Assembly (NCBI GenBank): GCA_902543245.1
Contig: CACBXQ010000001.1
Location: 62,001 to 126,000 of the forward strand
Reading direction: 5' to 3'
Source: an uncultured Pelagibacteraceae bacterium
GTDB lineage: Bacteria; Pseudomonadota; Alphaproteobacteria; Pelagibacterales; Pelagibacteraceae
DNA: 64,000 nt
The notes under the pieces were generated by a model. It was not told the DNA's origin, did not search any database, and saw only the letters and a list, made by a program, of their open reading frames with translations. Every line of letters starts with the position of its first letter. Position 1 is the first letter of the stretch. A program made the position numbers and the translations under genes. Shown here one piece after another: positions 32,906 through 63,053 of this stretch.

Positions 32906-32926
32906 TATAAATTTTTCTAAATTAAA

Positions 32927-35828: not shown

Positions 35829-35830
35829 TA

Positions 35831-37041: not shown

Positions 37042-37101
37042 GAATGTGATATAAGTTTTAATTTTTAATCTTCAACTAAATTTATAGCGCAAGTTGACAC
37101 A

Positions 37102-38930: not shown

Positions 38931-38965
38931 AATTTATATTTCAAATATACTTTAAAATTAGAAAA

Positions 38966-39691: not shown

Positions 39692-39727
39692 TCTGGGTTT
39701 TTTAGAATTATAGGATAAAATAATTAA

Positions 39728-40588: not shown

Positions 40589-40590
40589 AA

Positions 40591-41061: not shown

Positions 41062-41062
41062 T

Positions 41063-41398: not shown

Positions 41399-41449
41399 GA
41401 GATCCTTATATATAGTGACAAATTAAAATTCTAGATATAAAATAATATA

Positions 41450-42277: not shown

Positions 42278-42282
42278 AAATT

Positions 42283-43200: not shown

Positions 43201-43204
43201 AAAA

Positions 43205-44794: not shown

Positions 44795-44820
44795 TTTATT
44801 TTTTTTGATATATCAGCGGT

Positions 44821-46727: not shown

Positions 46728-46729
46728 AA

Positions 46730-47038: not shown

Positions 47039-47046
47039 AATTTAGG

Positions 47047-48072
47047 CTAATAACCTAAATCTTTATCTATTTGATTAAGTAATTTTTTATTTTCAATAAA
47101 AAGTTTTAAATTTTTTACAAATAAATCTAATGTCATTTTTACGTAATTTCCATCATCATCAGATGAAACGTGTGGTGTAATTACTAAATTTGGTGTTTTC
47201 CAAAGTCTTGAGCTTTTATCTATAGGTTCAGGTTTAAATACATCTAAAATGGCACCTGCAATTTCTTTACTTTCAAGTTTATCGCATAATACATCGTAAT
47301 CTAAAGCAGATTGTCTGCCAATATTTATTATTCCACAAGATGGCTTTAGTAAATCTAATCTTCTTTTATCAATCAAATTTTTAGTCTCTGGTGTCTCAGG
47401 TAGTGCAAGATATAAAATATCTGCTTTTGGTAGTACCGAATCTATTTTATCTACTGTAATAACATCAGAACAACCTTCAACTTTTTTTCCTTTTTTATTG
47501 ACTCCAATTATATTGGCTCCAAGTGGTGCCACAAGTTTAGCCATAGAAGAACCTAATGAACCCGTTCCTACAACGATAACATTTTTTCCAGCTATAGGAT
47601 TTCCAAAAGTAGATACAAATTCTTTATTCTTCTGATTTGTAATAATTTTAGGTAAATGGTTTTGAAGCATCAAAACACTCATTAAACCAAATTCTCCAGC
47701 TTTCTTAGCATGAACACCACTGCTATTTGTGATTTGTAATCCATCAAAGGTCCAATTAAAAGGGAACAAATGCTCCACTCCTGCAGCGGTACAATGAATC
47801 CATTTTAAATTTGGAGCAAGACTCTTTAGGTTTTTTGTAGGAAAATCATAGGTAAGTAAAATTTCTGAATTTAAAATTGATGAATTAAAATTATCTTCAT
47901 CCCAATCAATAAAAAATTCTACCTGATCTTTAATTTTGGGTTCTTTTTCAAAAGCTTTTTCAATATGTTCCTTTGTAATTGTAAAATTTTTTTCACCTTC
48001 TAAATCACATGGAAAAGTGCCAGGTCGACCATGATTATTTTTAACATGTATTTTTAATTTCTTATTTTTCAA
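47047..48072 (-). CDS. D-2-hydroxyacid dehydrogenase
   Basis: 341 aa. Rossmann motif VVGTGSLGSSMAKLVAPLGA near residue 165, catalytic Arg in NIGRQSALDYDVL, Glu in LDVFKPEPID and His in VITPHVSSDDDG. This is the GyaR/SerA-like superfamily, reducing 2-keto acids or oxidising D-2-hydroxyacids. It overlaps the end of the Rieske oxygenase gene by 4 bp, so its substrate may derive from that oxygenase. Confidence 0.88.
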   Translation of the reverse strand: MKNKKLKIHVKNNHGRPGTFPCDLEGEKNFTITKEHIEKAFEKEPKIKDQVEFFIDWDEDNFNSSILNSEILLTYDFPTKNLKSLAPNLKWIHCTAAGVEHLFPFNWTFDGLQITNSSGVHAKKAGEFGLMSVLMLQNHLPKIITNQKNKEFVSTFGNPIAGKNVIVVGTGSLGSSMAKLVAPLGANIIGVNKKGKKVEGCSDVITVDKIDSVLPKADILYLALPETPETKNLIDKRRLDLLKPSCGIINIGRQSALDYDVLCDKLESKEIAGAILDVFKPEPIDKSSRLWKTPNLVITPHVSSDDDGNYVKMTLDLFVKNLKLFIENKKLLNQIDKDLGY

Positions 48073-49415
48073 AATATTCCCTTTTTTTCTATTTCTGATA
48101 ATTTTTCAAATATAACTTGATCTCTATCTTTCATAGACATATTTTCTGTTTCAAACTGTAATTTCATTATATGTGATCCTATTGATTTCAGTAATTTTTT
48201 ATCATCAATATTTCTTTTTGGAGCTTTTAGAACTGTATCTTGTCCATATGTTTTAATTGTATCTACATATTTTTTTGGTTGTTCTGGTTCCTTTCCCTCT
48301 TTTAATTCTGTTATAGATTTTTTAATGTGTCTTCTGTAAGCCATGATACCTTGATCAGTAGGCATTAAATGTTCAGATTTATGTGCACTTATAGTTCCCA
48401 TACTTTCAACGGCTTCCGTATCTCCAGGGCTTTTTTGTTTTTCTTCTGGACTTCTGTTAGAAATTTCACCAGCTTCAATTTTTTCATATCCTTCATTATT
48501 ATCATATTCTATGGGATCTCCCCTATCTCCAAAATTTGCCCAAGCAATTGCTACACAACTGTGATCATCAGTCGGAACTACCCACCTCGTAAACGAACTT
48601 CTTCCAAAATATTTAGTTTTTGTCCCGTCGGCAGCAAATGCAGACCCGGCTTGTGTAAAATTAGGTAAAATTAATTCATTAATTCTAATCCAAACATTTT
48701 CTTCAACTCTTCTAATGTTTGCGCCAAGATATTGAATACCTTTTTCATAAAATTGAATTTCTCCTAGTTGAGCAAAGCCTTCTGAAAACTGAATTCCTGA
48801 ACTTTGTCCATGTAGAAATGAAGTATGGACAGGGTCCATTATAGCATCTAATACTTGTATCCAATTACAATTATATTTTACTAAGTAAGGACTTCTTTTT
48901 TCATAAGAAATTTCATAACTATCGTAATGTGGAAACTCAGGTATTTTATCCATTGGTCCTAAGTAGGCAAAAATTATTCCATTAAATTCTTTTACTGGAT
49001 ACGCGCCAAGTCTAAATTTATCTCTAATTAATTTTGCTTGTTTTGAATCGGATTCCTCTCCAGGAGTTTCTAATATTTCCCCATCGATAGAAAAAAGCCA
49101 ACCATGATAACAACACCTAATTCCATTATTCTCAGTTTTTCCAAATGCAAGAGATGCTCTTCTATGTGTACAATATTTGTGCACTAATCCTATTTGATGA
49201 TTTTTTGTTCTAAATATTACTAATTCTTCACCAAGTATTTTAATTTCTAAAGGTATATTGCTTACTTTAGACGATAATGATACTGGGTGCCAAAATCTTC
49301 TTAAATATTCACCCCCAGGGGTTCCTTGACCTGTGTGAGCAAGCAACTTATCGTAATCATATTTAATAGGTTGATCATAACCTGTGTATTTTTTTGTAAT
49401 GAAACTCAACAGCAA
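48069..49415 (-). CDS. Rieske-type ring-hydroxylating oxygenase, phthalate-dioxygenase-like
   Basis: 448 aa. Rieske [2Fe-2S] ligands CTHRRASLAFG...CCYHGW (CxH, then CxxH) near residues 82-104. The mononuclear iron region reads LDAIMDPVHTSFLHG (Asp, His, His). The long C-terminal part with LMPTDQGIMAYRRHIKK matches homomeric oxygenases of the phthalate dioxygenase or vanillate demethylase kind. It hydroxylates aromatics or removes O- or N-alkyl groups using a separate reductase; no reductase gene is seen in the window. Confidence 0.87.
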   Translation of the reverse strand: MLLSFITKKYTGYDQPIKYDYDKLLAHTGQGTPGGEYLRRFWHPVSLSSKVSNIPLEIKILGEELVIFRTKNHQIGLVHKYCTHRRASLAFGKTENNGIRCCYHGWLFSIDGEILETPGEESDSKQAKLIRDKFRLGAYPVKEFNGIIFAYLGPMDKIPEFPHYDSYEISYEKRSPYLVKYNCNWIQVLDAIMDPVHTSFLHGQSSGIQFSEGFAQLGEIQFYEKGIQYLGANIRRVEENVWIRINELILPNFTQAGSAFAADGTKTKYFGRSSFTRWVVPTDDHSCVAIAWANFGDRGDPIEYDNNEGYEKIEAGEISNRSPEEKQKSPGDTEAVESMGTISAHKSEHLMPTDQGIMAYRRHIKKSITELKEGKEPEQPKKYVDTIKTYGQDTVLKAPKRNIDDKKLLKSIGSHIMKLQFETENMSMKDRDQVIFEKLSEIEKKGIF

Positions 49416-49504
49416 TCTCCTTTAAAAACCTTAAATCCAAAGAATCTATTTTATTGAAATCTGGATAATTCGCAAATAAATTCGTTTTATAATTAAAGTT
49501 TAGT

Positions 49505-50617
49505 ATGCCAATAAATCAAAAAAATAAAAATACAATCTTAGGATTGCCCTCTGAATATTATAATAATAAAACTTTTTGGAAAAAAGAGTGTGATACAGTT
49601 TTATCAAATAATTGGCTATTTGTAGCATTTGCTCATGATTTAAAAAATCCAGGTGATGCTTATCCAGTATCAATTGCTGGAAAACCAATTTTAATAATAA
49701 AAGATCAAAAAAGTAAAATATCTGCATTTCATAATGTTTGTAGTCATAGATGTTTAAAGTTAGTAAATCAAAAAAAAAATTTGGGAAAAATAATTATATG
49801 TCCTTATCACTCTTGGACATATGATCTAGAAGGTAATTTAAAAGCTGCTCCACATATAGGTGGACCAAATAAACATAAACCTAAAGGATTTAATTTTAAA
49901 AAACATGGACTTAAACCAGTAAGAATTCATATTTGGAATGATTGGATTTTTATAAATATAAATGGTAAAGCAAAAAAATTTAGTGATTATGCTAAACCTT
50001 TATTTTCAAAACTTAAAAATATAGATTTTAAAAAGCTAAAGTATATTACAACATTAGATTTTGGAAAAATAAATACCAATTGGAAATTTTTAATTGAAAA
50101 TTTTATTGAGCCTTATCACGTTCAATTTGTTCATAAAAAAACAACTAATCAACCCTTAAAGGATCATTATACTATTGTTGATGGTCTTTGCTATGGAAGT
50201 GGTGTTGATGTAAATCAGGAAGATAATCATAACAGAAGTGCTTTATCGGTTTCTTCAAAATATTTATCTCTGTTTCCTAATTTTATAATAGGTACTTATT
50301 ACCCTAATCAAATTGGAGTTTACCTAAATATCCCAATAAATGCTGAATCGACTACTCAAAAGAGAGTAATATATACAATAGATGGAAAAAGCATGTCTAA
50401 AGAAGAGATTGATATTACTAAAAAGATATGGTGGAGTGTACATAAAGAAGATCATGAAATTTGTGAAAGACTTCAAGAAGGCAGAGCTTCACCAGCATCG
50501 GGCAAAGGTGGTTTGCTATCCCCACACTGGGAAAAGGGAGTTAAAGCATTTCAAAAATTAATTATGAAAGATACTTTAAAAAATAAAAAATTAATGAAAG
50601 GAAAAAAAAATGTCTAA
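49505..50617 (+). CDS. Rieske oxygenase, choline/carnitine-monooxygenase-like size class
   Basis: 370 aa. Rieske ligands NVCSHRCLKLVNQ and CPYHSWTYDLEG near residues 77-100. Mononuclear iron His pair in ENFIEPYHVQFVHK. Shorter and of a different subgroup from the minus-strand Rieske gene 90 bp away. Enzymes of this size include choline monooxygenase, carnitine monooxygenase and stachydrine demethylase, which fits the quaternary-amine setting, but aromatic substrates are not excluded. First gene of the plus-strand array; its end overlaps the glyoxalase gene by 8 bp. No ferredoxin reductase gene is present. Confidence 0.85.
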   Translation: MPINQKNKNTILGLPSEYYNNKTFWKKECDTVLSNNWLFVAFAHDLKNPGDAYPVSIAGKPILIIKDQKSKISAFHNVCSHRCLKLVNQKKNLGKIIICPYHSWTYDLEGNLKAAPHIGGPNKHKPKGFNFKKHGLKPVRIHIWNDWIFININGKAKKFSDYAKPLFSKLKNIDFKKLKYITTLDFGKINTNWKFLIENFIEPYHVQFVHKKTTNQPLKDHYTIVDGLCYGSGVDVNQEDNHNRSALSVSSKYLSLFPNFIIGTYYPNQIGVYLNIPINAESTTQKRVIYTIDGKSMSKEEIDITKKIWWSVHKEDHEICERLQEGRASPASGKGGLLSPHWEKGVKAFQKLIMKDTLKNKKLMKGKKNV

Positions 50618-51026
50618 AGATGCAAACAATGTTTATAGACTTGCTCATACTATGATTAGAGTGAAAGATCTTGAAAGTTCATTTAATTTTTATTGTAAAA
50701 CATTGGGTATGAAAATATTGAGAAAAACAGATTATCCTGATGGAAAATTTACCAATGCCTTTATAGGTTATGGAAAGGAAACAGAGTCTCCTTGTCTTGA
50801 ATTAACTCATAATTGGGACCAAAAAGATGATTATGATAAAGGAAATGGATGGGGACATATATGTATAGAAACACCTGATGTTTATAAAGCTTGTGAAGAC
50901 CTAGAAAAACTTGGCGTAAATATAACTAGAAAGCCAGGTCCGATGAAACATGGAACAAGAGTAATAGCATTTTGTGAAGATCCTGATGGTTATAAAGTTG
51001 AATTAAATGAACCGATAAAAACATAA
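50610..51026 (+). CDS. gloA: Glyoxalase I-like (VOC family) protein
   Basis: 138 aa, two betaalphabetabetabeta units. Metal ligands fit GloA: His in LAHTMIRVKDLESSF, Glu in CLELTHNWDQ, His in GWGHICIETPD and Glu at the C-terminus (YKVELNEPI). GloA isomerises the methylglyoxal-glutathione adduct to lactoylglutathione. In this array it may detoxify a reactive aldehyde, or act as another VOC enzyme. Overlaps the Rieske gene. Confidence 0.85.
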   Translation: MSKDANNVYRLAHTMIRVKDLESSFNFYCKTLGMKILRKTDYPDGKFTNAFIGYGKETESPCLELTHNWDQKDDYDKGNGWGHICIETPDVYKACEDLEKLGVNITRKPGPMKHGTRVIAFCEDPDGYKVELNEPIKT

Positions 51027-51042
51027 AAAAGAAAGGTATAAA

Positions 51043-51438
51043 ATGTCAAAAAAACCTCAACTATATAAGTTTAAAGATATCGAACATCGTCTTCAAACTT
51101 TAGAGCCAGGCAAAAGTTATATAAAACCATTTGTTACCAGTAAAGTAAGTGACACTATGTGTGGTGGGCTAAATTTTTTAAATAAAGTTTCTGTACCATG
51201 GGATTTGACTTGTGATGAAATTATTTATTGTATGGAAGGATCTTTTCGTTTGACTTGTGATGGTGAGTCTTATGTCTGCAATCCAGGTGATGTACTTTAT
51301 GTGCCTAAAGATAATCATATAGCATATGAATGTGATGAAAAATGTGTAATATTTTATGCTGCCTATCCTCATGATTGGAAGCAAAAAGCAGGAATTACAT
51401 TTGTCCCTGGTATTGATCCTGAGGATATGCCAAAATAA
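51043..51438 (+). CDS. EutQ-like cupin protein
   Basis: 131 aa, one cupin barrel. DEIIYCMEGSFRLTCDGESY and NPGDVLYVPKDNHIAYECDE are the two cupin motifs, and the ending YAAYPHDW is the EutQ pattern. Classical EutQ belongs to ethanolamine microcompartments, but no shell proteins are here. Position between a Rieske oxygenase and a glutamine synthetase suggests an accessory or catalytic cupin for an amine pathway. Confidence 0.78.
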   Translation: MSKKPQLYKFKDIEHRLQTLEPGKSYIKPFVTSKVSDTMCGGLNFLNKVSVPWDLTCDEIIYCMEGSFRLTCDGESYVCNPGDVLYVPKDNHIAYECDEKCVIFYAAYPHDWKQKAGITFVPGIDPEDMPK

Positions 51439-51458
51439 AAAAGTTTAAGGAGATTTTA

Positions 51459-52880
51459 ATGAGCAAAAATGAAAAAATTTATTATGAAAACTTCAAAGAT
51501 GCTGTTGAACGTAATAGAAAACAAATTCCAGCGGTTCATAAAAAATTAAAAAATGCTGGCGTAAAATATGTTCTTTCAAGCTGGATTGATCTCCATGGAA
51601 TCCCAAAATCAAAACCTGTTCCAATGAGTGATTTTGAACAATTATGTTTAGGTAAAGGACCTCAATTTGCAGTGCACTCTATCTCTTTTGTTCCAGAGCT
51701 CACGCCTGCTGATTCAGATCAAGTAATGTTACCAGACTTAAACTCTGTATACATTTGCCCCTGGGATAAAACTACCGCAATAATATTTGCTGATCTTTTT
51801 TGGGAAGAAAAACCATACAACGTTTGCCCACGACAAGCATTAAAAAGAGCCATGCAGAAAGCACAGGATTCAGGCTACGTAGGTATGGCTGGTATTGAGC
51901 CAGAATTCATCGCGATGAAGTATGATGAAAATGGCAAGCCTGTTAAAGCAATTGATAATGATCCGGCTAAAGGAATAAGACCTAGAAGGCAAGCTTTTGG
52001 CTATGATGTTGAACATACGTTAGACTCAATGCATTTTTTAAAAGAATTGATGGACATTTTAAATGATCTTGGTTGGATGTTGCATGATGTTGTTGCTGAA
52101 GGTGCCTATTCTCAATTTGAATTAGATTTTCATTACACAAATCTATTGGAGATGGCTGATAGATTAGTTTTCCTCCGAATTCTTTTAAAAGAAATAGCTA
52201 AAAAAAATAATATGTTTGTTACTTTTATGCCAAAACCAACAATAGGTGACTGGAGATCTGGAGCTCACATAAACTTTTCAATGCATGATAAAAGTGGAAA
52301 AAATATTTTTAAGGAAAAAAATAATTGGTCTAAACATTCTATGTATGCCGTTGGAGGATTGATGAAACATGCTGAAGCTTTAACATCTATCACATGTTCA
52401 ACAGTCAATTCGTATAATGGATTAGTGCCAAGAGTTGGAGGATTTGAAGGTGGAACCGTTACTTGGGCGCCAACAAATATTACTTATGGACACAACAACA
52501 GATCTGCACAATTTCGATTACCACAAAATAGATATTGTATTGAAAATAGAGCTGCAGATATGACTATGAATGTTTATTTGGCTCTTGCTATAACAATGGC
52601 AGCAGCTGTTGAAGGTATTGAAAAAAAAATAAATCCAGGTGATCCTACAGATCAAGATTTATATGATATGTCTGAAAGCGAATTTAAAAGACTAGGAATT
52701 AAGAGACTACCAAGAAACTTATTAATGGCATTAGATGCATTTAAAAAAGATAAATTAATTGATGATGTTTTGGGGGCAGTAATGAAAAAATCATTACTTG
52801 CGTATAAAAATGATGAATGGGAAAGATACCATCAAGCAGTTACCGACTGGGAAGTTAAAGAATATTTAAGACTTTATTAA
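51459..52880 (+). CDS. Divergent type III glutamine synthetase-like ligase
   Basis: 473 aa, SD AAGGAG 6 bp before the ATG. Glutamine synthetase fold motifs: GIEPEFIAM (metal Glu), GAYSQFELDFH, GAHINFSMHD, GHNNRSAQFRLP and ENRAADMTMNVYLA. Compared with gmaS at 6392 the HxH motif is HIN (second His replaced by Asn), and the usual DxxANPYL reads DMTMNVYL. The core metal and Arg residues are kept, so it is probably active on a different amine. Relatives ligate glutamate to methylamine, ethanolamine, polyamines or aniline. Context: Rieske oxygenase and cupin upstream, hydrolase 3 bp downstream. Confidence 0.82.
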   Translation: MSKNEKIYYENFKDAVERNRKQIPAVHKKLKNAGVKYVLSSWIDLHGIPKSKPVPMSDFEQLCLGKGPQFAVHSISFVPELTPADSDQVMLPDLNSVYICPWDKTTAIIFADLFWEEKPYNVCPRQALKRAMQKAQDSGYVGMAGIEPEFIAMKYDENGKPVKAIDNDPAKGIRPRRQAFGYDVEHTLDSMHFLKELMDILNDLGWMLHDVVAEGAYSQFELDFHYTNLLEMADRLVFLRILLKEIAKKNNMFVTFMPKPTIGDWRSGAHINFSMHDKSGKNIFKEKNNWSKHSMYAVGGLMKHAEALTSITCSTVNSYNGLVPRVGGFEGGTVTWAPTNITYGHNNRSAQFRLPQNRYCIENRAADMTMNVYLALAITMAAAVEGIEKKINPGDPTDQDLYDMSESEFKRLGIKRLPRNLLMALDAFKKDKLIDDVLGAVMKKSLLAYKNDEWERYHQAVTDWEVKEYLRLY

Positions 52881-52883
52881 TTA

Positions 52884-53894
52884 ATGAAAGATTTTAATAA
52901 GTTTGAATTGGGTAATATCAAACTTTTATCCGGTAAAATCTTAAAGTCAGCAAAATTAGTTTACAAAACATACGGTACACTAAATAAAAAAAAATCAAAT
53001 GTAGTGATACTTCCAACTTTTTACACCGGGACTCATATTAGAAATGAGGGCTTCATTGGAAAAAACAGAGCATTAAATCCTAATAAATATTTTATTATTT
53101 CAATAAATATGTTTGGAAACGGATTATCATCTTCTCCAAGTAATTCAAAAAAAAATCAACAAGGATCAAAATTTCCAACAGTTACACTTTGGGATAATGT
53201 TAATTGTCAGCATAAATTAATTACAGAGAAATTAAAAATTAAAAAAATAGCTCTAGTTACTGGATGGTCGATGGCAGGATGTCAGTCATATCAATGGGCT
53301 GCTCAATACCCTAACATGGTAAAATCAATTTTACCATTTTGTGCATCATCAAAGACCTCAATTCATAATCATGTTTTTTTAGAAGGCGTAAAATCAGCTT
53401 TAACTTCAGATAAAAATTGGAATGGTGGTAATTACAAAAAACAACCAATAGCTGGTTTAAAAGCTTTTGGTCGTGTTTATGCTGGTTGGGCATTTTCACA
53501 AGATTTCTACAGAGAAAAACTTTACAAAAAAATTGGATACAAAGATGTAGAGAGTTTACTTAAAGATTGGGAAAATGATCATGCTAAAAATTGGGATGCA
53601 AATGATTTGCTTCTCAAACTTAAAACATGGCAATTAAACGATATTAGCAAAGGACCAATTTACAAAAGTAATTATGTTAAAGCTCTTAGATCAATTAGAG
53701 CAAAAACAATTTTGATGCCTTGTAATCAAGATCTTTACTTTAGAACTGAGGATAATCTTATAGAACATCAATATATTTCTAGATCAAAGATTAAACCGAT
53801 AGACTCAAGTTTTGGGCATTGTGCTGCAAATCCTGGTAATGATAAAAACTTTCAAGATAAACTTGATAAAAATATCAAGGATTTATTAAATTGA
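52884..53894 (+). CDS. MetX-like alpha/beta hydrolase
   Basis: 336 aa. Homoserine O-acetyltransferase-type fold with nucleophile Ser in VTGWSMAGCQSYQWAAQYP, Asp in MPCNQDLYFRTEDN and His in SSFGHCAANPG. The early block NVVILPTFYTGTHIRNEGFIG differs from true MetX, so hydrolysis of an ester or amide, such as a glutamyl-linked intermediate, is as plausible as acyl transfer. Last gene before the 134-bp gap. Confidence 0.75.
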   Translation: MKDFNKFELGNIKLLSGKILKSAKLVYKTYGTLNKKKSNVVILPTFYTGTHIRNEGFIGKNRALNPNKYFIISINMFGNGLSSSPSNSKKNQQGSKFPTVTLWDNVNCQHKLITEKLKIKKIALVTGWSMAGCQSYQWAAQYPNMVKSILPFCASSKTSIHNHVFLEGVKSALTSDKNWNGGNYKKQPIAGLKAFGRVYAGWAFSQDFYREKLYKKIGYKDVESLLKDWENDHAKNWDANDLLLKLKTWQLNDISKGPIYKSNYVKALRSIRAKTILMPCNQDLYFRTEDNLIEHQYISRSKIKPIDSSFGHCAANPGNDKNFQDKLDKNIKDLLN

Positions 53895-53905
53895 TTTGAT
53901 AAATA

Positions 53906-53934
53906 TTGAAAATATTACAAATTTAAGATATTGT
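53906..53934 (+). promoter_or_regulatory. Possible promoter of the LLM monooxygenase operon
   Basis: TTGAAA and TATTGT separated by exactly 17 bp. Matches are 5/6 for the -35 and 4/6 for the -10. It lies at the start of the 134-bp gap and would give a leader of about 85-90 nt that includes the GC-rich element at 53945-54006. Confidence 0.4.
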
Positions 53935-53944
53935 AGAAATATAA

Positions 53945-54006
53945 AGCGATACATAACTCGTCGTTACATCTTTTACGGAAGTGGGATCAGGTCGACTTTT
54001 TTAAAT
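53945..54006 (+). ncRNA. Candidate structured 5' leader upstream of the LLM monooxygenase gene
   Basis: Within an otherwise A/T gap the stretch AACTCGTCGTTACATC...GGAAGTGGGATCAGGTCGAC is unusually GC-rich and ends in seven Ts. A short hairpin TCGT/ACGG and a long-range GTCG/CGAC pairing can be drawn, but no long stem is evident. I do not recognise a known riboswitch class (it does not look like SAM-II, SAM-V or glycine aptamers). It could be a pseudoknotted aptamer, an attenuator for the preceding genes or a protein-binding site. Confidence 0.35.
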
Positions 54007-54016
54007 TTTAATATTT

Positions 54017-54023
54017 AAAGGAG
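54017..54023 (+). promoter_or_regulatory. Strong Shine-Dalgarno site of the LLM gene
   Basis: AAAGGAG lies 5 bp before ATG 54029, one of the best ribosome-binding sites in the window. It fixes the start and suggests high expression once the leader is passed. Confidence 0.7.
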
Positions 54024-54028
54024 AAAAG

Positions 54029-55198
54029 ATGAAATTTGGATATTTTTGCAACACTACTAATTGGACAAAAAAACCCTACGATAAGCTTCTTGATGAAACA
54101 AAAGAAATTACTGAATACTGTGATCAAAATAACTGGGACTCAATCTGGTATACTGAACATCATTTTAATCATGAGGGAATGGAAGCTTGTACAAACCCGT
54201 TAATGATGGGAGTTGATGCTGCCGCTAGAACAAAAAACATCAGAATAGGACAAGCGTGTAATGTAATTACTTTTCACAATCCTATAAAAATGGCAGAAGA
54301 TATTGCTTTATTAGATCAAATTTCAAAAGGAAGAGTAGAGGTAGGTGTTGGAAGAGGAATTTATGGAAGAGAAGCTATAAATTTAAATGTTGAAGCTGAC
54401 ATGAAAGATCAAGCAAAAAATTTTAGATTATTTTCAGAAACATTAGACATATTAAAAAAAGCATGGTCAGAAGAGTTCTTTAGTCATAAAGGTGAATTTT
54501 ATACTTATCCTGCTCCAGATTATGTATGGCAACATGATATGAGTCCACCTAGCGAAAAATTTATGAATATGGAAAATAATACAATGAAAAAAATTAGTGT
54601 TGTTCCAAAACCATATCAAAGACCCTTCCCACCAATTCATCAAGTTGTTGACGGTATAAGATCTATTGAATGGGCAGCACAACAAGGGATTAATATAATT
54701 ATGTGGATACCAACTGTAAAAGCTTTAAAAATTAAATTTGAAGCATATAAAAATGCAAGGTCAGAAGCTGAAAAAAGAAATGTTCCTATGGGTGAAGGGA
54801 TTAGTCTTGTAAGAGATATGTTTGTTGCAGATACGATGGAAGAAGCTAAAGAAAAAGCAGGTGAGCACATGGTTAATTACATGAGGTGGGTTTGTCACTG
54901 GAGAGGACTTGGAAACCACATGGATCCAGGAGAAGAATTACCACAAACAAAAGGTAAATTAGATTTGTTGAATTATGAATTTTTGCATAAAAGAAACATG
55001 CTTTTTGGAACGCCAGAATATGTAACTGAAAAAATTCATGAGCTTAAATCAGAGTTAAATCTTCAAAATCTTCAAGTATGGTCAAATTTTCCCGGTATCA
55101 AACACGAGGATTGTATGAAGAGTATTAAACTTTTCACTGAAAAGGTAATGCCTAATTTTCAAGATGATTTAAATACTGAAGTTAAAAAAGTTTCGTGA
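54029..55198 (+). CDS. LLM-class (luciferase-like) flavin-dependent monooxygenase
   Basis: 389 aa. Bacterial-luciferase TIM barrel: KFGYFCNTTNW start, WYTEHHFNHEGM with the conserved His, IRIGQACNVITFHNP, DQISKGRVEVGVGRGIYGRE and FGTPEYVTEKIHEL. Such enzymes use reduced flavin and oxygen to open rings or cleave C-N or C-S bonds (RutA on uracil, PyrA-type on pyridine, SsuD on sulfonates). The partner flavin reductase is not in the window. The stop overlaps the GTG start of the TPP enzyme gene, so they are translationally coupled. Confidence 0.9.
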   Translation: MKFGYFCNTTNWTKKPYDKLLDETKEITEYCDQNNWDSIWYTEHHFNHEGMEACTNPLMMGVDAAARTKNIRIGQACNVITFHNPIKMAEDIALLDQISKGRVEVGVGRGIYGREAINLNVEADMKDQAKNFRLFSETLDILKKAWSEEFFSHKGEFYTYPAPDYVWQHDMSPPSEKFMNMENNTMKKISVVPKPYQRPFPPIHQVVDGIRSIEWAAQQGINIIMWIPTVKALKIKFEAYKNARSEAEKRNVPMGEGISLVRDMFVADTMEEAKEKAGEHMVNYMRWVCHWRGLGNHMDPGEELPQTKGKLDLLNYEFLHKRNMLFGTPEYVTEKIHELKSELNLQNLQVWSNFPGIKHEDCMKSIKLFTEKVMPNFQDDLNTEVKKVS

Positions 55199-56895
55199 TT
55201 CAAAAAAAAAGGCTCCTCACTGGAGGGCAAGCTGCAGTAAAATCTTTAAAAAAAGAAAAAGTAAAACATGTTTTTGGGTTAATTGGTTCTGCAACCATGG
55301 AAATGTTTGATGCCTTGTACCATGAAAAAAAAATAAAGTTTATAGGAGTAAGAGATGAAAGAACTGGTACTCATATGGCAGACGGATACGCAAGAGCCTC
55401 TAATCAGCCAGGAGTAATATTAGCAGGACAGAATGGTCCAGGCGCAACAAATCTTGTAACAGGTATTGCACAGGCAAAAGCTGCATTTTCACCAGTTATC
55501 TCTATAGCAGGTTCATATTCAACAAAAGATAAAATGGAAGATGCATTTCAGGGACTTGACCAACAATCACTATTTAATCCAATTACTAAAAAAACCTGGA
55601 CTGTAAAAAATACAAAGCTTATTCCTAAAGTATTTAGTGATGCTTTTAGATTGTCAATGTCACCTAGAAGAGGCCCTGTATGCATTAATTTACCAAGAAA
55701 TATTTTAGCAACTTCTGAAAAATTTAGAATAAATGAAATAGAAAAATCTTATGAAGAAAATATTAATCTTAAATCAAATAACAAATTATTAAAAAAGGTA
55801 GTAAATTTAATAAATGGATCAAAAAAAGTAGTAATTATTGTTGGTGCTGGAATTAAATACAATTCTAAATTTAAAAAAGTTACTCGATTAGCTGAATATT
55901 TAAATGTACCTATCGTTACTGCCGCAGGTCATGGTGATGCTGTACCATTTGATCATAAATTACATGCAGGACAAATGGGTCCTAGAGGTAATCCTGTTGC
56001 TTCCAAATTAGTAAAAGAAGCAGATATAATAATTGCACTTGGAACAAGACTTGGTTTTAATTCAACTTTTTATTCTTATGAAAATATAAATAAAAAAGCA
56101 AAAATCATTCAAGTAGAATTAGAAAAGAAAATGATCGGAAGATACTTTCCAGTTAAAATAGGTATATATGCCGATGCAGCGACATTTGCTGATCAATTAT
56201 ACAATGAAATTAAAAAAACAAAATTAACTACTAATTTAAAAGAGTGGACAACTATATATCTTAACGAAAGAAAAAATTTTTTAATCGATAGAGATAAAAT
56301 AAAATTTAAAAACTACCCAATACAACCAAAGGGCTTATTTAAACAACTCAGACAAGTTCTACCAAAAAATTCTGCAATTACATTAGATGCTGGAACACTT
56401 TGTTTGCAAGCAACTGATGCACTAGAATACTACAACCCACCTTCTCTTTTCACGCCATTAGATTTTGGATTGGTAGGGTTTTCTTTTGCGTGTGGATTAG
56501 GTGTAAAAGTAGCTAAACCAAATAAAAAAGTGATTAGTTTAATGGGTGATGGCGGATTTGGAATGACAATATCAGAACTTAGCACTGCAGTCGAATACGG
56601 AATTAATACTATTACAATTGTAATGAATAATAAAAGTTGGGGAGCGGAAAAAGCATATCAAAAAGATTTTTTTGGAAAAAGATATCTTGGAGCTGATATC
56701 TCTAGTCCACCTTTTGATAAAGTTGCAGAACTTTATGGAGCTAAAGGTTTTAAAGTAACTAAAACTTCTGAGATTAATCAAGCTGTTAAAGCAGCTTTGA
56801 AGATCAACAAACCAGTAGTGATAGATGTTGATGTGGACCCGAAAGCATTATACAGTTTTAGAAGAGATAGTTTCAAACATAGAATTAAAAAATGA
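55195..56895 (+). CDS. Thiamine-diphosphate enzyme, acetolactate synthase/Xsc-like
   Basis: 566 aa from a GTG start inside the LLM stop region. N-terminal pyrimidine-binding domain with VFGLIGSATMEMFDAL and the activating Glu in RDERTGTHMADGYARAS, then AGQNGPGATNLVTGIA. The central domain has VVIIVGAGIKYNSKF. The C-terminal TPP motif reads MGDGGFGMTISEL...MNNKSWGAEK. N- and C-terminal stretches (GLIGSA, RRDSFKHR) recall sulfoacetaldehyde acetyltransferase more than biosynthetic IlvB, and no IlvN or Pta gene follows. It may carboligate or cleave a 2-keto acid or aldehyde from this pathway. Confidence 0.82.
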   Translation: MIQKKRLLTGGQAAVKSLKKEKVKHVFGLIGSATMEMFDALYHEKKIKFIGVRDERTGTHMADGYARASNQPGVILAGQNGPGATNLVTGIAQAKAAFSPVISIAGSYSTKDKMEDAFQGLDQQSLFNPITKKTWTVKNTKLIPKVFSDAFRLSMSPRRGPVCINLPRNILATSEKFRINEIEKSYEENINLKSNNKLLKKVVNLINGSKKVVIIVGAGIKYNSKFKKVTRLAEYLNVPIVTAAGHGDAVPFDHKLHAGQMGPRGNPVASKLVKEADIIIALGTRLGFNSTFYSYENINKKAKIIQVELEKKMIGRYFPVKIGIYADAATFADQLYNEIKKTKLTTNLKEWTTIYLNERKNFLIDRDKIKFKNYPIQPKGLFKQLRQVLPKNSAITLDAGTLCLQATDALEYYNPPSLFTPLDFGLVGFSFACGLGVKVAKPNKKVISLMGDGGFGMTISELSTAVEYGINTITIVMNNKSWGAEKAYQKDFFGKRYLGADISSPPFDKVAELYGAKGFKVTKTSEINQAVKAALKINKPVVIDVDVDPKALYSFRRDSFKHRIKK

Positions 56896-57479
56896 AATTA
56901 GAATTAAGAAAATTTAATAAATTTGTAGATAAAACATTTATTGAAGGTGGAAAAGAGGCAAAAGAACCGGTTCTCTTAGTTTCTGTTGCGGCTGTTTTTA
57001 AAAACCCTTGGCACAACCAAGGTTTTGTGGAAGATTTAAAACCTGTAATTTTAGATTTAGCACCAAAACTTGGAGATATATTAGTTCCTGAATTGATAAA
57101 AGAAATAGGATCGCCAGAAAAAATTTTGGCTTACGGAAAAGCTGGAGTAGTTGGTTTAGATGGAGAAATTGAACATGCTTCAGCTTTTATTCATACACTA
57201 AGATTTGGAAATAAATTTAGAGATGCCGTAGGTGGTACATCATATTTAAGTTTTACAAATACAAGATCTCCTGCTGGCTCTAAAATATCTATACCTATGA
57301 TGCATAAAACAGATTCAGGGCTTCGACCATATTATTTGACTCACGAGTTTACAATTCATGATGCACCATTTGATAATGAAATAGTAATAGCCATAGGTGG
57401 ATCAACGAGTGGAAGAGCTCATGCCCGTACTGGTGATAGGTACCAAGATATGAAGGAAATGGGAATTGAACCTAAATAA
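56892..57479 (+). CDS. AA_synth (DUF1185) family protein
   Basis: 195 aa, full length for the family. Diagnostic stretches are LLVSVAAVFKNPWHNQGFVEDL, YGKAGVVGLDGEIEHASAFIHTLRFGN and IHDAPFDNEIVIAIGG, ending GRAHARTGDRYQDMKE. The family name amino acid synthesis protein is historical; biochemical function is not established. It overlaps the TPP gene by 4 bp. Such genes often sit beside LLM monooxygenases and hydrolases, as here. Confidence 0.87.
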   Translation: MKLELRKFNKFVDKTFIEGGKEAKEPVLLVSVAAVFKNPWHNQGFVEDLKPVILDLAPKLGDILVPELIKEIGSPEKILAYGKAGVVGLDGEIEHASAFIHTLRFGNKFRDAVGGTSYLSFTNTRSPAGSKISIPMMHKTDSGLRPYYLTHEFTIHDAPFDNEIVIAIGGSTSGRAHARTGDRYQDMKEMGIEPK

Positions 57480-57484
57480 AATAA

Positions 57485-58258
57485 ATGATCAGTGCTACAG
57501 ACACTAAAAATACTTTTTACATATTAAACAAAAAAGAAAAAACTCCAATTATATTTATACATGGTGTTGGTTTGAACCATACAATTTGGATTCCACAAAT
57601 AAATTTTTTTGATAATACTGTAGTTACGTATGATATTCTTGGACATGGAAAAACTCCATTAGTAAAAAATAACTTAAGTTTTAATGATTTTTCTATTCAA
57701 TTATTAAACTTAATAGATGAATTAGATATTGATAAAATTCATCTTGTTGGCTTTTCTATTGGGTCATTGATAGCAAGAGATTTTGCTGCTAAATATAATT
57801 CAAGGCTTAAAAGTTTAACATTGTTGTGTTCAATTTTTAATAGATCAGCAGAGCAACAAAGAATAGTTAATGATAGATTTGAATTATCAAAAAAAAATGG
57901 ATCTTTATCAAAACAGGCTCTTAAGAGATGGTTTACCGATGAATATCTGGAAAAATATCCTGATACATATCATAAAATTATATCAATTTTGAAATCTAAT
58001 AATATGCAAAATTTCCTAAAAGTTTATGAGTTATTTGTAAAACATAAAGATGAGGAAATTTTTGATAATATAAAAGTAAATACCCTAATTATGACGGGCG
58101 AAAATGATATTGGCTCAACTCCAGAAATGTCTAAAAATTTAAGTAAGCATATTGCAAATTCTCAAGTTAAAATCGTTCCTAAAGGAAAACATCTATGTAG
58201 TATTGAGTGTTCAGATGATGTAAATAACGCTATTAAAGATTTTATAAAAAATGAGTAA
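57485..58258 (+). CDS. Alpha/beta hydrolase, RutD/enol-lactonase-like
   Basis: 257 aa. Oxyanion region IFIHGVGLNHTIWIPQINFF, nucleophile elbow LVGFSIGSLIARDFAAKYN, Asp in MTGENDIGSTPEMS and His in VPKGKHLCSIECSDD. It resembles 3-oxoadipate enol-lactonase and RutD, which hydrolyse ring-opened lactones or carbamates. It follows the AA_synth gene by 5 bp and overlaps the aldehyde dehydrogenase gene by 8 bp. Confidence 0.87.
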   Translation: MISATDTKNTFYILNKKEKTPIIFIHGVGLNHTIWIPQINFFDNTVVTYDILGHGKTPLVKNNLSFNDFSIQLLNLIDELDIDKIHLVGFSIGSLIARDFAAKYNSRLKSLTLLCSIFNRSAEQQRIVNDRFELSKKNGSLSKQALKRWFTDEYLEKYPDTYHKIISILKSNNMQNFLKVYELFVKHKDEEIFDNIKVNTLIMTGENDIGSTPEMSKNLSKHIANSQVKIVPKGKHLCSIECSDDVNNAIKDFIKNE

Positions 58259-59732
58259 ATTAAAACAATACAAAATGTTTATTGGTGGAAACTGGGTTGA
58301 TTCTGAAACCAAAAAAATATTTGAAACTTTAAATCCAGAAAATAACAAACCATGGGCTTTGGTTCCTGAAGCAAGTTCAAAAGATGTTGATAATGCAGTC
58401 AAAGCTGCTCATAAAGCTTTTGAGGGAGAATGGCCAAAACTTTTACCTAGGGAGAGAGCAAAATTTCTAAGAGCAATTGGTCAAAAGTTAAGAGACAATG
58501 CTGAATTATTAGGCAAAGTAGAAACTATAGATACAGGTAAACTTTTTAGAGAAACAAATAAACAAGCAAATTACATTGCCGAATATTATGATTATTATGC
58601 TGGTCTAGCTGATAAGGTTGAGGGTACAGTTTTACCAATTGATAAACCAAATGTTCAAGCGGTAACTACTAGGATACCTATTGGAGTAATAGCAGCTATT
58701 GTGCCTTGGAATTCACAAATGTTTCTCACAGCAACTAAACTTGCTCCAGCATTAGCTATGGGCAATACTGTTGTTATCAAATCCTCTGAACTTGCACCAG
58801 CAGTCATGTTTGAATTTGCAAAATTAATTGAAGAAACAGGAATTCCTAAAGGAGTTGTTAATGTGATAACTGGTTTTGGCAATCCTTGTGGTAAAGCACT
58901 GACTGCACATAATTTAGTGGAAAAAGTTGCATTTACTGGTGGTCCAGAAACAGCAAGACATATAATTAGAAATTCTGCTGAAAATTTATCTGAAGTAAGT
59001 TTAGAACTTGGTGGAAAAAGTCCAGTTGCAGTTTTTGATGACGCTCATCAAGAAAATGCAATCAATGGTATTACTGCTGGTATTTTTGGAGCTAGCGGAC
59101 AAAGTTGTATTGCAGGATCTAGATTATATTTACAAAAAGGAATTTATAATGAGTTCTTAGAAAAGTTAATTAATAGAGCAAATAAAATTAAAATTGGTAC
59201 CCCAATGGATCCTGACACTGAAATGGGTCCTTTAAGTAATTTCAAACAATTAGAAGTTATTGAAAAAAATATTAAACTTACAAAAGAACAAGGTGGTACT
59301 ATAAAATGTGGTGGAGAAAGACACCCATTTTCAAATGAAGGTTATTACTTTCCACCTACTATTATAGAATGTGAAAACCATAATTTACCAACGGCAGAAA
59401 ATGAATTATTTGGACCTGTATTATCTGTAATGAAATTTGATACTGAAGATGAAGTAATTAAAAAAATGAATGATAATCAATATGGATTATCATCTGGTGT
59501 CTATACTAGTGATTTTTCCAGAGGATTAAGAGTTTCAAAAGCAATAAGAGCAGGAATCACATTTGTAAATACATATAGATTAATTTCACCCTCTGCACCT
59601 TTTGGAGGAATAAAAGATAGTGGTTATGGTAAAGAGGCAGGCATAGACTCTATAAAAGATTACACAAGGGTAAAAACAACTTGGTATTATACTTCTGACG
59701 AACCAACTCTTGATCCTTTTTCAATTAGATAG
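58251..59732 (+). CDS. Aldehyde dehydrogenase of the LLM operon
   Basis: 493 aa, complete. Catalytic Glu in VSLELGGKSPVAVFDD and Cys in GASGQSCIAGSRLYL; cofactor region IVPWNSQMFLTATKLAPAL. It is a different subgroup from the two 477-aa paralogues at 17899 and 31475, closer to hydroxymuconic or betaine-type enzymes. It should oxidise the aldehyde released after ring opening and hydrolysis. Its stop overlaps the GTG start of the transporter gene. Confidence 0.9.
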   Translation: MSKLKQYKMFIGGNWVDSETKKIFETLNPENNKPWALVPEASSKDVDNAVKAAHKAFEGEWPKLLPRERAKFLRAIGQKLRDNAELLGKVETIDTGKLFRETNKQANYIAEYYDYYAGLADKVEGTVLPIDKPNVQAVTTRIPIGVIAAIVPWNSQMFLTATKLAPALAMGNTVVIKSSELAPAVMFEFAKLIEETGIPKGVVNVITGFGNPCGKALTAHNLVEKVAFTGGPETARHIIRNSAENLSEVSLELGGKSPVAVFDDAHQENAINGITAGIFGASGQSCIAGSRLYLQKGIYNEFLEKLINRANKIKIGTPMDPDTEMGPLSNFKQLEVIEKNIKLTKEQGGTIKCGGERHPFSNEGYYFPPTIIECENHNLPTAENELFGPVLSVMKFDTEDEVIKKMNDNQYGLSSGVYTSDFSRGLRVSKAIRAGITFVNTYRLISPSAPFGGIKDSGYGKEAGIDSIKDYTRVKTTWYYTSDEPTLDPFSIR

Positions 59733-60589
59733 TGCCAATTAAACATATTTTAATTTTATTATTTATAATGGCTACCCATGGAAGCGCATTTCCACTAGCT
59801 AAACTAGTTCTAAATAATTCTGTTCCACCTATATTAATGGCCTCATTGAGAATGGGTTTAGTTCTATTAATACTTATTCCTTTTTGGAGATTTAAAATAC
59901 CGAATAGAAAATATATAAAACCATTGATATTTTTTTCAATTTCTATGGGTGTAATGGTTTATGTTTTCATGAATTTGTCTTTAAAAAACTCTAGTTTTAT
60001 TTCACCTATTATTATTGGAGCTCAACTTGCAATACCTTTTGGAGTTTTGGCAAGCAGTTTAATGCTAAATGAGAATATAAGTATGAAAAAATGGTTTTAT
60101 GTCTTTGCTTCTTTTGTTGGAATAGTAATTGTATTTTTTGATCCAGAACTTAAAAATAATATCCTAGGTTTATTTTTTGCTACCCTGATGGCGCTGTTTT
60201 TTGGTCTTGCTCAAGTTTACTCAAGAGAATTAAGAAATTTAGATATCTCATTAATAAATGCATTTACTGGATTGTTTGGCTTTATTATTTTAATGATAGC
60301 TTCATTTTTTTTTGAAGGAAATGTATTAAATAATACATTAAATATAAATTTAGAATCTTGGATATTAATATTATATCAAGCTTTCATAGTTTCGTTGTTT
60401 GCTCACATGTCAATGTTCTATCTTTATAAATTTTATACAGTAGGACAAATTTTTCCCTTCTATTCTTTGTTTCCAATATTTGGTATTCTTCTCACATATT
60501 TAATTTTTGGAGAAATTCCTTCAATGTTATTCTTTGTTGGAGCTATTATAGTAATTAGTTCAGTGATTTTACTTCAAAAAAAGGACTAA
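59732..60589 (+). CDS. EamA/DMT-superfamily transporter
   Basis: 285 aa from GTG 59732, overlapping the aldehyde dehydrogenase stop (TAGTG). About ten membrane spans; typical starts MATHGSAFPLAKLVLNNSVPP and second-repeat end FGEIPSMLFFVGAIIVISSVI. By coupling it probably moves a substrate or product of the array. Last coupled gene before the binding-protein gene. Confidence 0.85.
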   Translation: MPIKHILILLFIMATHGSAFPLAKLVLNNSVPPILMASLRMGLVLLILIPFWRFKIPNRKYIKPLIFFSISMGVMVYVFMNLSLKNSSFISPIIIGAQLAIPFGVLASSLMLNENISMKKWFYVFASFVGIVIVFFDPELKNNILGLFFATLMALFFGLAQVYSRELRNLDISLINAFTGLFGFIILMIASFFFEGNVLNNTLNINLESWILILYQAFIVSLFAHMSMFYLYKFYTVGQIFPFYSLFPIFGILLTYLIFGEIPSMLFFVGAIIVISSVILLQKKD

Positions 60590-60650
60590 CTTTCTTATTG
60601 ATATAATTAATAGATGATATTTAATTTAATTATATAAAAATTGATAACTA

Positions 60651-60656
60651 AAGGGG
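60651..60656 (+). promoter_or_regulatory. Shine-Dalgarno site that sets the binding-protein start
   Basis: AAGGGG lies 5 bp before ATG 60662. The track start TTG 60641 is upstream of this site and would put seven polar residues before the signal peptide, so it is rejected. Confidence 0.75.
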
Positions 60657-60661
60657 ATAAA

Positions 60662-61843
60662 ATGAAAAAAATATTAGTTGCTGCATTTATATTTGCTATG
60701 ACTTTATCGGCAAATTCTTTCGCAGACATTAAAATGGGAATTATTTTAGGATTTACTGGTCCGATTGAGTCTTTAACTCCAGCCATGAGAGATTCTGCAA
60801 GACTTGCTTTTCAAGAAGCATCTGACTCAGGCTCTTTACTAGAAGGAGAAAAAATATCTATACTAGAAGGTGACTCTACATGTGTAGATAGCGCTGCCGC
60901 GACTGCCGCTGCTGAAAAAATGATTTCTGACGGAGTTGCTGCTATTATGGGTGCAGATTGTTCAGGAGTAACTGGAGCAATTGCAACAAACGTAGCTGTA
61001 CCTAATGGTGTAGTAATGATATCGCCATCGGCAACATCACCTGGATTAACAGATTTAAATGATAATGGTTATTTTTTTAGAACTGCACCATCAGATGCTA
61101 GAGGTGGACAAGTTCTTGCAGATATAACTAAAGATAGAAAAATTAAAAGTGTTGCAATTACATACACAAATAACGACTACGGAAAAGGTTTGGCAGACGT
61201 TTATGCTGCTGCTGTAAAAGCACATGGTATTAAAGTTACAACTGTTGCAGCACACGAAGAAGGTAAAGGTGATTATACTGCTGAAGTTTCTACATTAGCT
61301 GCTGCAGGTGGTGACGCTGTTGCTGTGATTGGTTATTTAGATCAAGGTGGAAAAATGATAATTCAAGGATCATTAGATGCTGGTGCATTTGATACATTTA
61401 TACTTTCAGATGGTATGATTGGACAGTCTCTAGTTGATAATATTGGAGATGGTTTAAAAAAATCATTTGGTTCAATGCCTGGATCTACAGGTAAAGGTGC
61501 CGGAATTTTTGCTAGTGTTGCAAAATCAGGTGGAATAGACTCATCAGGACCTTACACAGGAGAATCTTATGACGCTGCAGCTTTAATAGTATTAGCTATG
61601 CAAGCTGGAAAATCAGCTGATAGAGCTTCAATTGCAAAAAATATAATGGGTGTAGCTAATGGGCCTGGAACAAAAATCTATCCTGGAGAACTTAAAAAAG
61701 GATTAGATCTTTTAGCTAAAGGCAAAGCGGTTGATTACGAAGGTGCTACTGGAGTAAATTTTACTGACGTTGGTGAAGCCTTTGGATCTTTCTTAGAGCA
61801 AGAAATAAAAGGTGGAAAGTTCAAAACAGCCAAACAAAGATAA
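60662..61843 (+). CDS. Branched-chain amino-acid-type ABC transporter binding protein (LivK-like)
   Basis: 393 aa from ATG 60662. Signal peptide KKILVAAFIFAMTLSANSFA; the mature start DIKMGIILGFTGPIESLTPAM is typical of Peripla_BP_6 proteins. Other family stretches: MGADCSGVTGAIATNVAVPNG and GESYDAAALIVLAMQAG. It binds an amino acid, amide or aromatic acid in the periplasm. No LivHMFG genes are adjacent, so the permease is elsewhere. Closed by a strong terminator. It may deliver the substrate of the upstream array. Confidence 0.9.
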   Translation: MKKILVAAFIFAMTLSANSFADIKMGIILGFTGPIESLTPAMRDSARLAFQEASDSGSLLEGEKISILEGDSTCVDSAAATAAAEKMISDGVAAIMGADCSGVTGAIATNVAVPNGVVMISPSATSPGLTDLNDNGYFFRTAPSDARGGQVLADITKDRKIKSVAITYTNNDYGKGLADVYAAAVKAHGIKVTTVAAHEEGKGDYTAEVSTLAAAGGDAVAVIGYLDQGGKMIIQGSLDAGAFDTFILSDGMIGQSLVDNIGDGLKKSFGSMPGSTGKGAGIFASVAKSGGIDSSGPYTGESYDAAALIVLAMQAGKSADRASIAKNIMGVANGPGTKIYPGELKKGLDLLAKGKAVDYEGATGVNFTDVGEAFGSFLEQEIKGGKFKTAKQR

Positions 61844-61853
61844 TTATCTAAAT

Positions 61854-63053
61854 TTAAACCCCAGTAGTACTTTTTCTACTGGGGTTTTTTTTGTCTCTTA
61901 GATCAGCATTTATTGTAGATGCAATAATTAAAAATAAAAAAGGTATACAAAATAAATTCAAGATTTTCCAACTAGCTAATGAAACTGCAATACCAGCAGA
62001 TAAACTTCCTAACGCCATAGTTGAGAATACAATTAAATCATTAAAGCCTTGAGCTTTAAATTTTTCCTCTGGTGTATACGTAGTTACAAGCAAACTTGTT
62101 CCTGTCACAAAAAGAAAATTCCATCCAATTCCAAGAAATATGAGCCCGATAAAATAACTTGTAAATGAAGGTTCAGGAAAGCTTACTAAAATTGTTAAAA
62201 TATAAAAAATAACTCCGAAATAAATCATTTTACTGTATCCAAATTTTTTTATCAAATTACCTGTAAATAAAGATGGAAGAAACATTGCCACAAGATGAAA
62301 TTGAAGAACTAATCCAGTATTTTGCAAACTGATGTTGTGAATTAAGTGCATGCTAATTGGTGTCGCAGTCATCAAAAAAGACATTATAGCATAGGCAAAT
62401 GCTGCTGATGTTAATGCTTGTAAAAACCTTGGACCCTTTATAAACTCCAAATAGCTTCTAGTTCTTCTTTCATCATTTTTAGAAAACTCTATTTCATTTT
62501 TATTTTTAAAAAAAAACAAAAATATAGCTGGAAGAAAAGTTAAAATTGATAATATTAAGTATGACCCAACATACATATGATCACTAAAAAAATTTTTTGT
62601 ATAATCGGCTAGACTTATACCTATAAATCCAGCAATTATACCTGACAATAATAAATACGAGATAGCTTTAGGTGCCTTATCTTTAGACACACTTTCGGCA
62701 GCAGCAAATCGATACTGATGAGTGAATGCACCACTTCCACCAAGTATTAAACAAGATATACAAAACAATATAAAATTTTCTTTAGAAATAGAATAAGCGC
62801 CAAGTAAACAAGCAACTGATCCAGCAATTGCTGCGAGAACAAACCCCCACCTTCGACCGATTAAACTCATTACTTTAGCAGCAACTATTGTTGATATTGC
62901 TATCCCAACTACATAAATTGATGGAGGTAAAGTTGATAATGTTTTTATTGGGCTCAAATCTGAACCAATAATTCCACTTAAAAAAACTGTTACTGTTGCA
63001 GCAGTAAATCCAAAGATTTGACTTAGAATTAATAATATAAGATTTTTGTTCAC
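61854..63053 (-). CDS. MFS transporter
   Basis: 399 aa with about 12 membrane spans. The MFS loop 2-3 motif appears as SLIGRRWGFVLAAIAGS. A central charged loop (KNKNEIEFSKNDERRTRS) separates the two halves. Substrate not inferable. Its C-terminal codons (SRKSTTGV and stop) are the terminator hairpin of the converging gene, so a few terminal residues are dictated by RNA structure. 56 bp downstream of the malonyl-CoA decarboxylase gene on the same strand. Confidence 0.88.
   Translation of the reverse strand: MNKNLILLILSQIFGFTAATVTVFLSGIIGSDLSPIKTLSTLPPSIYVVGIAISTIVAAKVMSLIGRRWGFVLAAIAGSVACLLGAYSISKENFILFCISCLILGGSGAFTHQYRFAAAESVSKDKAPKAISYLLLSGIIAGFIGISLADYTKNFFSDHMYVGSYLILSILTFLPAIFLFFFKNKNEIEFSKNDERRTRSYLEFIKGPRFLQALTSAAFAYAIMSFLMTATPISMHLIHNISLQNTGLVLQFHLVAMFLPSLFTGNLIKKFGYSKMIYFGVIFYILTILVSFPEPSFTSYFIGLIFLGIGWNFLFVTGTSLLVTTYTPEEKFKAQGFNDLIVFSTMALGSLSAGIAVSLASWKILNLFCIPFLFLIIASTINADLRDKKNPSRKSTTGV
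61856..61892. terminator. Strong terminator shared by converging genes
   Basis: AAACCCCAGTAG / CTACTGGGGTTT form a perfect 12-bp stem with an 8-base loop, followed on the plus strand by a run of eight Ts. It ends the binding-protein transcript. On the minus strand the same arms encode the last residues and stop of the MFS gene, with a weaker T tract. Confidence 0.92.

Follow-up and report, generated by a model that had tools for sequence, protein, structure and literature searches.

Operon layout and conservation

We analyzed a 64,000-nt window of a SAR11 contig (GC content 30.5%; host assembly ~1.0 Mb, 80% complete) that contains a compact operon headed by a luciferase-like monooxygenase (LLM). 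An earlier note, made from the sequence alone, had described six tightly packed open reading frames here, and we reproduced their coordinates, families, and gaps. The LLM is followed by a thiamine diphosphate (ThDP)-dependent enzyme (TPP enzyme, after thiamine pyrophosphate), an AA_synth family protein, an alpha/beta hydrolase, an aldehyde dehydrogenase (ALDH), and an EamA-family transporter, separated by gaps of -4, -4, +5, -8, and -1 bp. The host is SAR11; Pelagibacteraceae also account for nearly all of the 80 named organisms whose LLMs are most closely related. An oligotrophic aquatic host is in line with the earlier note, which had envisaged a marine one. No Rfam element was found near the operon.

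The LLM, an optional TPP enzyme, AA_synth, hydrolase, and ALDH form a real, conserved, and accessory five-gene cassette in SAR11. Of the 94 SAR11 loci examined, 9 run off their contig before reaching the ALDH; the other 85 are informative, and every one of them has the order LLM-(TPP)(methyltransferase)-AA_synth-hydrolase-ALDH. The methyltransferase is an S-adenosylmethionine-dependent methyltransferase-like gene between the TPP enzyme and AA_synth in 3 of these 85 (e.g. L212:10585-11214, L050). About one third of the order's genomes carry the cassette: we found the LLM in 100 of the 297 genomes sampled, and in 49 of the 150 that are ≥90% complete. A second family of the order has the same set in synteny, TPP enzyme included (LLM identity 56-60%). 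Outside SAR11, the cassette occurs without the TPP enzyme in an alphaproteobacterium (L105; LLM identity 54%), where a flavin reductase gene adjoins the LLM, and, in synteny, in an actinomycetal metagenome-assembled genome (MAG; L121). A search for the LLM across 399 sampled genomes of the phylum at E<1e-90 matched only the window's own genome. The linkage of the genes in the cassette is not due to chance; the conserved unit proposed in the earlier note holds throughout the informative SAR11 loci and in synteny beyond them, and we did not see the opposite pattern named there, homologues scattered without kept neighbors.

Table 1. Features of the cassette and its surroundings (positions in the window)
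Feature	Coordinates	Strand	Basis or remark
LLM, proposed ring-opening oxygenase	54029..55198	+	PF00296 E=7e-43; EHHF motif; fold matches
TPP (ThDP-dependent) enzyme, Xsc-related but distinct subgroup by sequence, clade-specific accessory	55195..56895	+	PF02775/02776/00205
AA_synth, TgnF-like	56892..57479	+	PF06684/DUF1185; fold DUF1185
Alpha/beta hydrolase, proposed N-formyl/enamide hydrolase (TgnD-like role)	57485..58258	+	GFSIG nucleophile motif; best NCBIfam models
ALDH, TgnC-like	58251..59732	+	GQSC and LELGG motifs; identities, tree
EamA-family transporter; site neighbor	59732..60589	+	Missing beside ALDH in most SAR11 loci
Periplasmic binding protein, branched-chain-amino-acid type, SAR11 core; fixed right flank	60662..61843	+	36/37 genomes
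Terminator-like hairpin, 12-bp stem and T run, 3′ of binding protein	61856..61887	+	Consensus match only
Accessory island holding the operon	30447..60661		Between EutA-like core gene (29700-30446) and binding protein (60662); bounds by gene content, not base-exact

Operon boundaries and the accessory island

The sixth gene lies outside the conserved unit. Of the 85 informative loci, only 23 have EamA adjoining the ALDH, and in L207, L208, and L211 the gene occupies this site although the operon is missing. We therefore rejected EamA as an operon member, and with it the note's assignment as the operon's transporter. The downstream binding protein was likewise rejected as a dedicated transporter, being a core gene that is found in 36 of 37 genomes whether the operon is present or not. 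Its start is most likely the ATG at 60662, which opens a signal peptide (MKKILVAAF...), rather than the TTG at 60641.

In L209 and L210 the site is empty, with the EutA-like core gene ~137 bp from the binding protein. Since these core flanks can lie so close together, the 30.4-60.6 kb region of the window is an accessory island, with the operon as its last cassette. Island genes match choline dehydrogenase, gamma-butyrobetaine dioxygenase, carnitine dehydrogenase, and beta-keto acid cleavage enzyme (BKACE), several of them below curated cut-offs, and the 30-kb island also holds Rieske oxygenases. Directly upstream of the operon (49505-53894) is a row of Rieske oxygenase, VOC protein, EutQ-like cupin, type III glutamine-synthetase-like, and MetX-like genes. 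This row is a separate insertion that L212 and L213 do not have next to the LLM, and the Rieske, cupin, glutamine synthetase, and MetX-like genes were rejected as operon parts, not being conserved beside it.

The LLM oxygenase

By both sequence and fold, the closest matches of the window LLM are bacterial luciferase, RslO1, and 3,6-diketocamphane monooxygenase (DKCMO). Its EHHF motif places His44 at His44 of LuxA in a gap-free alignment, the catalytic histidine of luciferase. Scores against other LLM models were low, at 29 bits for the NtaA/DmoA-type model (cut-off 280), 27 for SsuD, and 52 for SfnG. RutA was not among the 50 best fold matches, RutA and PyrA themselves not having been aligned directly. 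The LLM belongs to a separate luciferase/type-II Baeyer-Villiger-like clade that is not RutA-like, and the analogy to uracil (Rut) degradation drawn in the earlier note found no support. Nor did the LLM group with a characterized enzyme that would explain the operon, an outcome the note had also considered. In the LLM tree, the window type (support 0.92) forms a clade separate from the LLMs of the Tgn-type clusters described below (support 0.996).

A second SAR11 LLM, 344 aa long and accompanied by an alpha/beta hydrolase, was found at L215:7488-9299, L216:7381-9192, L217:8380-10197, and L218:6009-7820. It shares only 22-23% identity with the window LLM and 26-30% with Tgn-type LLMs; in L215 and L216, carnitine dehydrogenase and BKACE genes adjoin the pair. 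Related LLMs also occur on Sulfitobacter and Peribacillus plasmids (L078:7911-11884, L079:7920-11609) with a metallo-beta-lactamase-fold protein and 3,4-dihydroxy-2-butanone-4-phosphate synthase, and L079 additionally has riboflavin kinase. These plasmid neighbors are possibly the LLMs' own flavin supply genes.

A probably shared ALDH, AA_synth, and hydrolase chassis

The trigonelline degradation (Tgn) system, reportedly described by Perchat in 2018, comprises a two-component LLM (TgnA/TgnB), TgnC to TgnE, and the AA_synth protein TgnF. TgnC is an ALDH and TgnD a hydrolase. We found that the closest plasmid relatives of the window AA_synth and ALDH sit in AA_synth-hydrolase-flavin reductase-LLM-ALDH clusters, hosted by Rhizobium, Sinorhizobium, Shinella, Leisingera, Thioclava, Gemmobacter, Chimaeribacter, and Acinetobacter. 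The S. meliloti cluster is on pSymA beside nodL, noeA, and noeB; the pSym symbiotic region is where trigonelline genes have been mapped (Goldmann 1991, as cited in PMC12489286). We call these clusters Tgn-type because of their gene make-up and the position of the S. meliloti cluster by nod genes in the trigonelline-mapped region, a label that draws on these features rather than on the characterized Acinetobacter baylyi ADP1 sequences. Identification of TgnB as an LLM follows PMC11354265.

The window ALDH is 49-54% identical to the ALDHs of Tgn-type and allied clusters versus 31-35% to other ALDHs, and the ALDH tree unites the window, L105, and Tgn-type sequences in one clade (0.95), with L105 next to the Tgn-type (0.97) and its ALDH 62% identical to that of the S. 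meliloti cluster. The window AA_synth is ~50-57% identical to the AA_synth proteins of Tgn-type and allied LLM/flavin reductase/ALDH clusters (52-57% for Tgn-type members), and its tree fits a shared family, less well resolved than the ALDH tree. The relation of AA_synth to TgnF is stated in PMC7913881. AA_synth, for which the earlier note had seen no functional lead, thus does have one: its closest relatives lie within trigonelline-type clusters, whose member of the family goes by the name TgnF. A relationship to cyanuric acid hydrolase or barbiturase was rejected, the fold search having returned only DUF1185 structures.

The ALDH tree thus unites the window with the Tgn-type clusters, and the LLM tree separates them. 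Read most simply, these phylogenies describe a single chassis whose oxygenase was exchanged. Two related clusters also contain RidA, of the enamine/imine deaminase family. In L202:4911-15395 (Parasedimentitalea) and L203:6033-15525 (Aminobacter), AA_synth, hydrolase, RidA, ALDH, and LLM are joined by genes resembling those for crotonobetainyl-CoA hydratase, carnitine dehydrogenase, and BKACE. These clusters may represent a third chassis variant.

The hydrolase has a GFSIG nucleophile motif, with candidate Asp and His residues in GENDIG and GKHL, and scores best against NCBIfam models of the enol-lactonase PcaD group. Together with the luciferase-, RslO1-, and DKCMO-like LLM, this could suggest a Baeyer-Villiger-type oxidation of an acyclic or alicyclic carbonyl, such as a carnitine-like keto acid, in which the LLM would form an ester or lactone, the hydrolase would open it, and the ALDH would oxidize the released aldehyde; LLM-hydrolase pairs in L195, L202, L203, and SAR11 L215 do adjoin carnitine dehydrogenase and BKACE genes. 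However, the PcaD score is common to the hydrolases of Tgn-type clusters, AA_synth and ALDH point to those same clusters, and nearest-fold matches within the LLMs are not predictive of substrate. We consider this chemistry unlikely.

The TPP enzyme

The TPP enzyme contains the catalytic Glu and GDG motifs, and its best NCBIfam model is Xsc (sulfoacetaldehyde acetyltransferase), in line with the resemblance to Xsc and acetolactate synthase seen in the earlier note. Its scores fall below both curated cut-offs (392 vs 620 and 371 vs 676 bits). It is 50-53% identical to the enzyme of the second family, 39% to a Ruegeria pomeroyi enzyme, and 31% to pta-linked Xsc. No pta is present in the operon, where the conserved neighbors are the LLM, AA_synth, hydrolase, and ALDH. 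We rejected an ordinary Xsc or acetohydroxyacid synthase, to which identity is only ~27-33%; judged by sequence, the TPP enzyme is a distinct subgroup related to Xsc. In the 26 genomes tested, its orthologues were found solely inside the cassette. They mark two well-supported LLM clades and are missing from the others, including a whole SAR11 clade that keeps the remaining genes, so the enzyme is accessory. The nearest TPP enzyme outside SAR11, on the R. pomeroyi DSS-3 megaplasmid (L204:2351-11671), occurs with an MttB-like methyltransferase, a class III aminotransferase, and two flavin adenine dinucleotide-dependent oxidoreductases, an operon whose substrate is perhaps a methylated amine or a taurine-like betaine.

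The Xsc match also bears on C-S cleavage, the alternative raised in the earlier note, in which the LLM would desulfonate the substrate or the TPP enzyme would free sulfite from a sulfoacetaldehyde-like product. The LLM family does include SsuD, SfnG, and DmoA, but the window LLM scores negligibly against the SsuD and NtaA/DmoA-type models and weakly against SfnG, so that it is the Xsc-related TPP enzyme that keeps the idea alive. The distance of this enzyme from pta-linked Xsc, its absence from a SAR11 clade with an otherwise complete cassette, and the lack of pta or a sulfite exporter in the operon all make C-S cleavage very improbable.

Flavin supply

The earlier note had remarked that no flavin reductase is encoded with the LLM, and this extends beyond the operon: no PF01613 flavin reductase turned up in the window's own assembly, which is 80% complete, nor in any of 16 additional genomes from the genus (17 in total), among which are five single-contig LLM carriers. 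The operon thereby departs from the Tgn system and from L105. Flavin mononucleotide (FMN) reductases of PF03358 occurred in every one of ten genomes examined, LLM carriers and non-carriers alike, making a shared reductase plausible, and a general FMN reductase probably serves the LLM.

Proposed pathway and substrate

We propose, with slightly better than even confidence, that this accessory SAR11 catabolic cassette works like the Tgn pathway with a different oxygenase and that its substrate is most likely an N-methylpyridinium betaine, homarine being the best single candidate. The mechanism is likely, and the cassette is best described as a Tgn-type ring-opening variant. The LLM, with FMNH2 from a general reductase, would oxygenate and open the N-heteroaromatic ring to an N-formyl enamine bearing an aldehyde, which the TgnC-like ALDH would convert to the acid. 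The TgnD-like hydrolase would then strip the formyl group, and the enamine would yield methylamine or an N-methyl amino acid together with a C4/C5 acid, with AA_synth assisting as proposed for TgnF. In one SAR11 clade and the second family, the TPP enzyme could act further on a product that is an aldehyde or a 2-oxo acid, adding a C-C step. Oxidative opening of an N-heterocycle, the logic favored by the earlier note, is supported as the best reading.

An N-methylpyridinium betaine would fit the chassis, and homarine would fit best by its abundance and by the argued inability of TgnAB to use it. Passages of PMC8269262 give homarine as the most abundant metabolite measured in North Pacific particles and argue that TgnAB is sterically unable to use it. 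We also counted the carnitine-, gamma-butyrobetaine-, and choline-type genes of the island in favor of this proposal.

Several observations weigh against it. Similarity of the chemistry to that of Tgn is uncertain because the window LLM and hydrolase are only 23-27% and 20-25% identical to their Tgn-type counterparts, and the Tgn-type label itself has an indirect basis. No substrate-specific transporter is linked to the cassette, and a gammaproteobacterial MAG (L195) keeps the LLM, hydrolase, and ALDH with AA_synth missing. Relatives in Parasedimentitalea, Aminobacter, and a gammaproteobacterium adjoin carnitine-type genes, because of which an acyclic betaine could be the substrate. Additionally, freshwater SAR11 also have the operon (L122 from Lake Baikal; L192, of lake origin as inferred from the sample name), so a purely marine substrate is not favored.

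The same mechanism may already have been described, with the operon as the SAR11 version of a published homarine pathway, which we regard as quite possible, if somewhat short of an even chance. The five genes of L105 (reductase, LLM, AA_synth, hydrolase, and ALDH) would fit five enzymes homA-E, and a homABCDER operon has reportedly been found in SAR11 too. However, Tgn-type clusters share the five-gene make-up of L105. A conserved homarine pathway including N-methylglutamate dehydrogenase has been published (Ferrer-Gonzalez 2026 Nat Microbiol, as cited in a passage of PMC13390433). The further idea that a new oxygenase on the Tgn chassis opens an abundant N-heterocycle outside the described pathways, with an undescribed ThDP enzyme whose C-C step changes the end product in some clades, is a doubtful one.

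Significance and comparison with known systems

SAR11 bacteria are among the most numerous marine heterotrophs, and which dissolved compounds they consume is a central question. Because about one third of the order's sampled genomes carry the cassette, its substrate would represent a real carbon and nitrogen flux. Our comparisons suggest that the ALDH/AA_synth/hydrolase chassis is reused with unrelated oxygenases, and such reuse provides a way into studying both the AA_synth family, whose function is unproven, and a new ThDP enzyme subgroup.

The Tgn system resembles the window operon in combining an LLM, ALDH, alpha/beta hydrolase, and AA_synth in one operon. Unlike Tgn, the window operon has an LLM from another clade, a different gene order, and an optional TPP enzyme, and is without a flavin reductase, succinate-semialdehyde dehydrogenase, or GntR regulator. 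The homarine pathway (Ferrer-Gonzalez 2026) shares environmental and marine bacterial hosts, an N-methylpyridine betaine, and possibly a similar ring-opening logic. The Rut pathway and the pyridine (Pyr) operon share the logic of ring cleavage by an LLM and a hydrolase; in contrast, the window LLM is outside the NtaA/DmoA-type group and its operon has neither isochorismatase nor RidA. Xsc shares the ThDP fold and the conserved Glu and GDG motifs with the window TPP enzyme and is its top curated model, whereas the enzyme scores far under the curated cut-off and is closer to the Ruegeria enzyme than to pta-linked Xsc. The DUF1185 structures BB2672 and SPO0826 have the same fold as the window AA_synth at 27-28% identity; unlike it, they lie, in the account given in a passage of PMC2954203, beside genes for branched-chain amino acid metabolism or transport, with function unproven.

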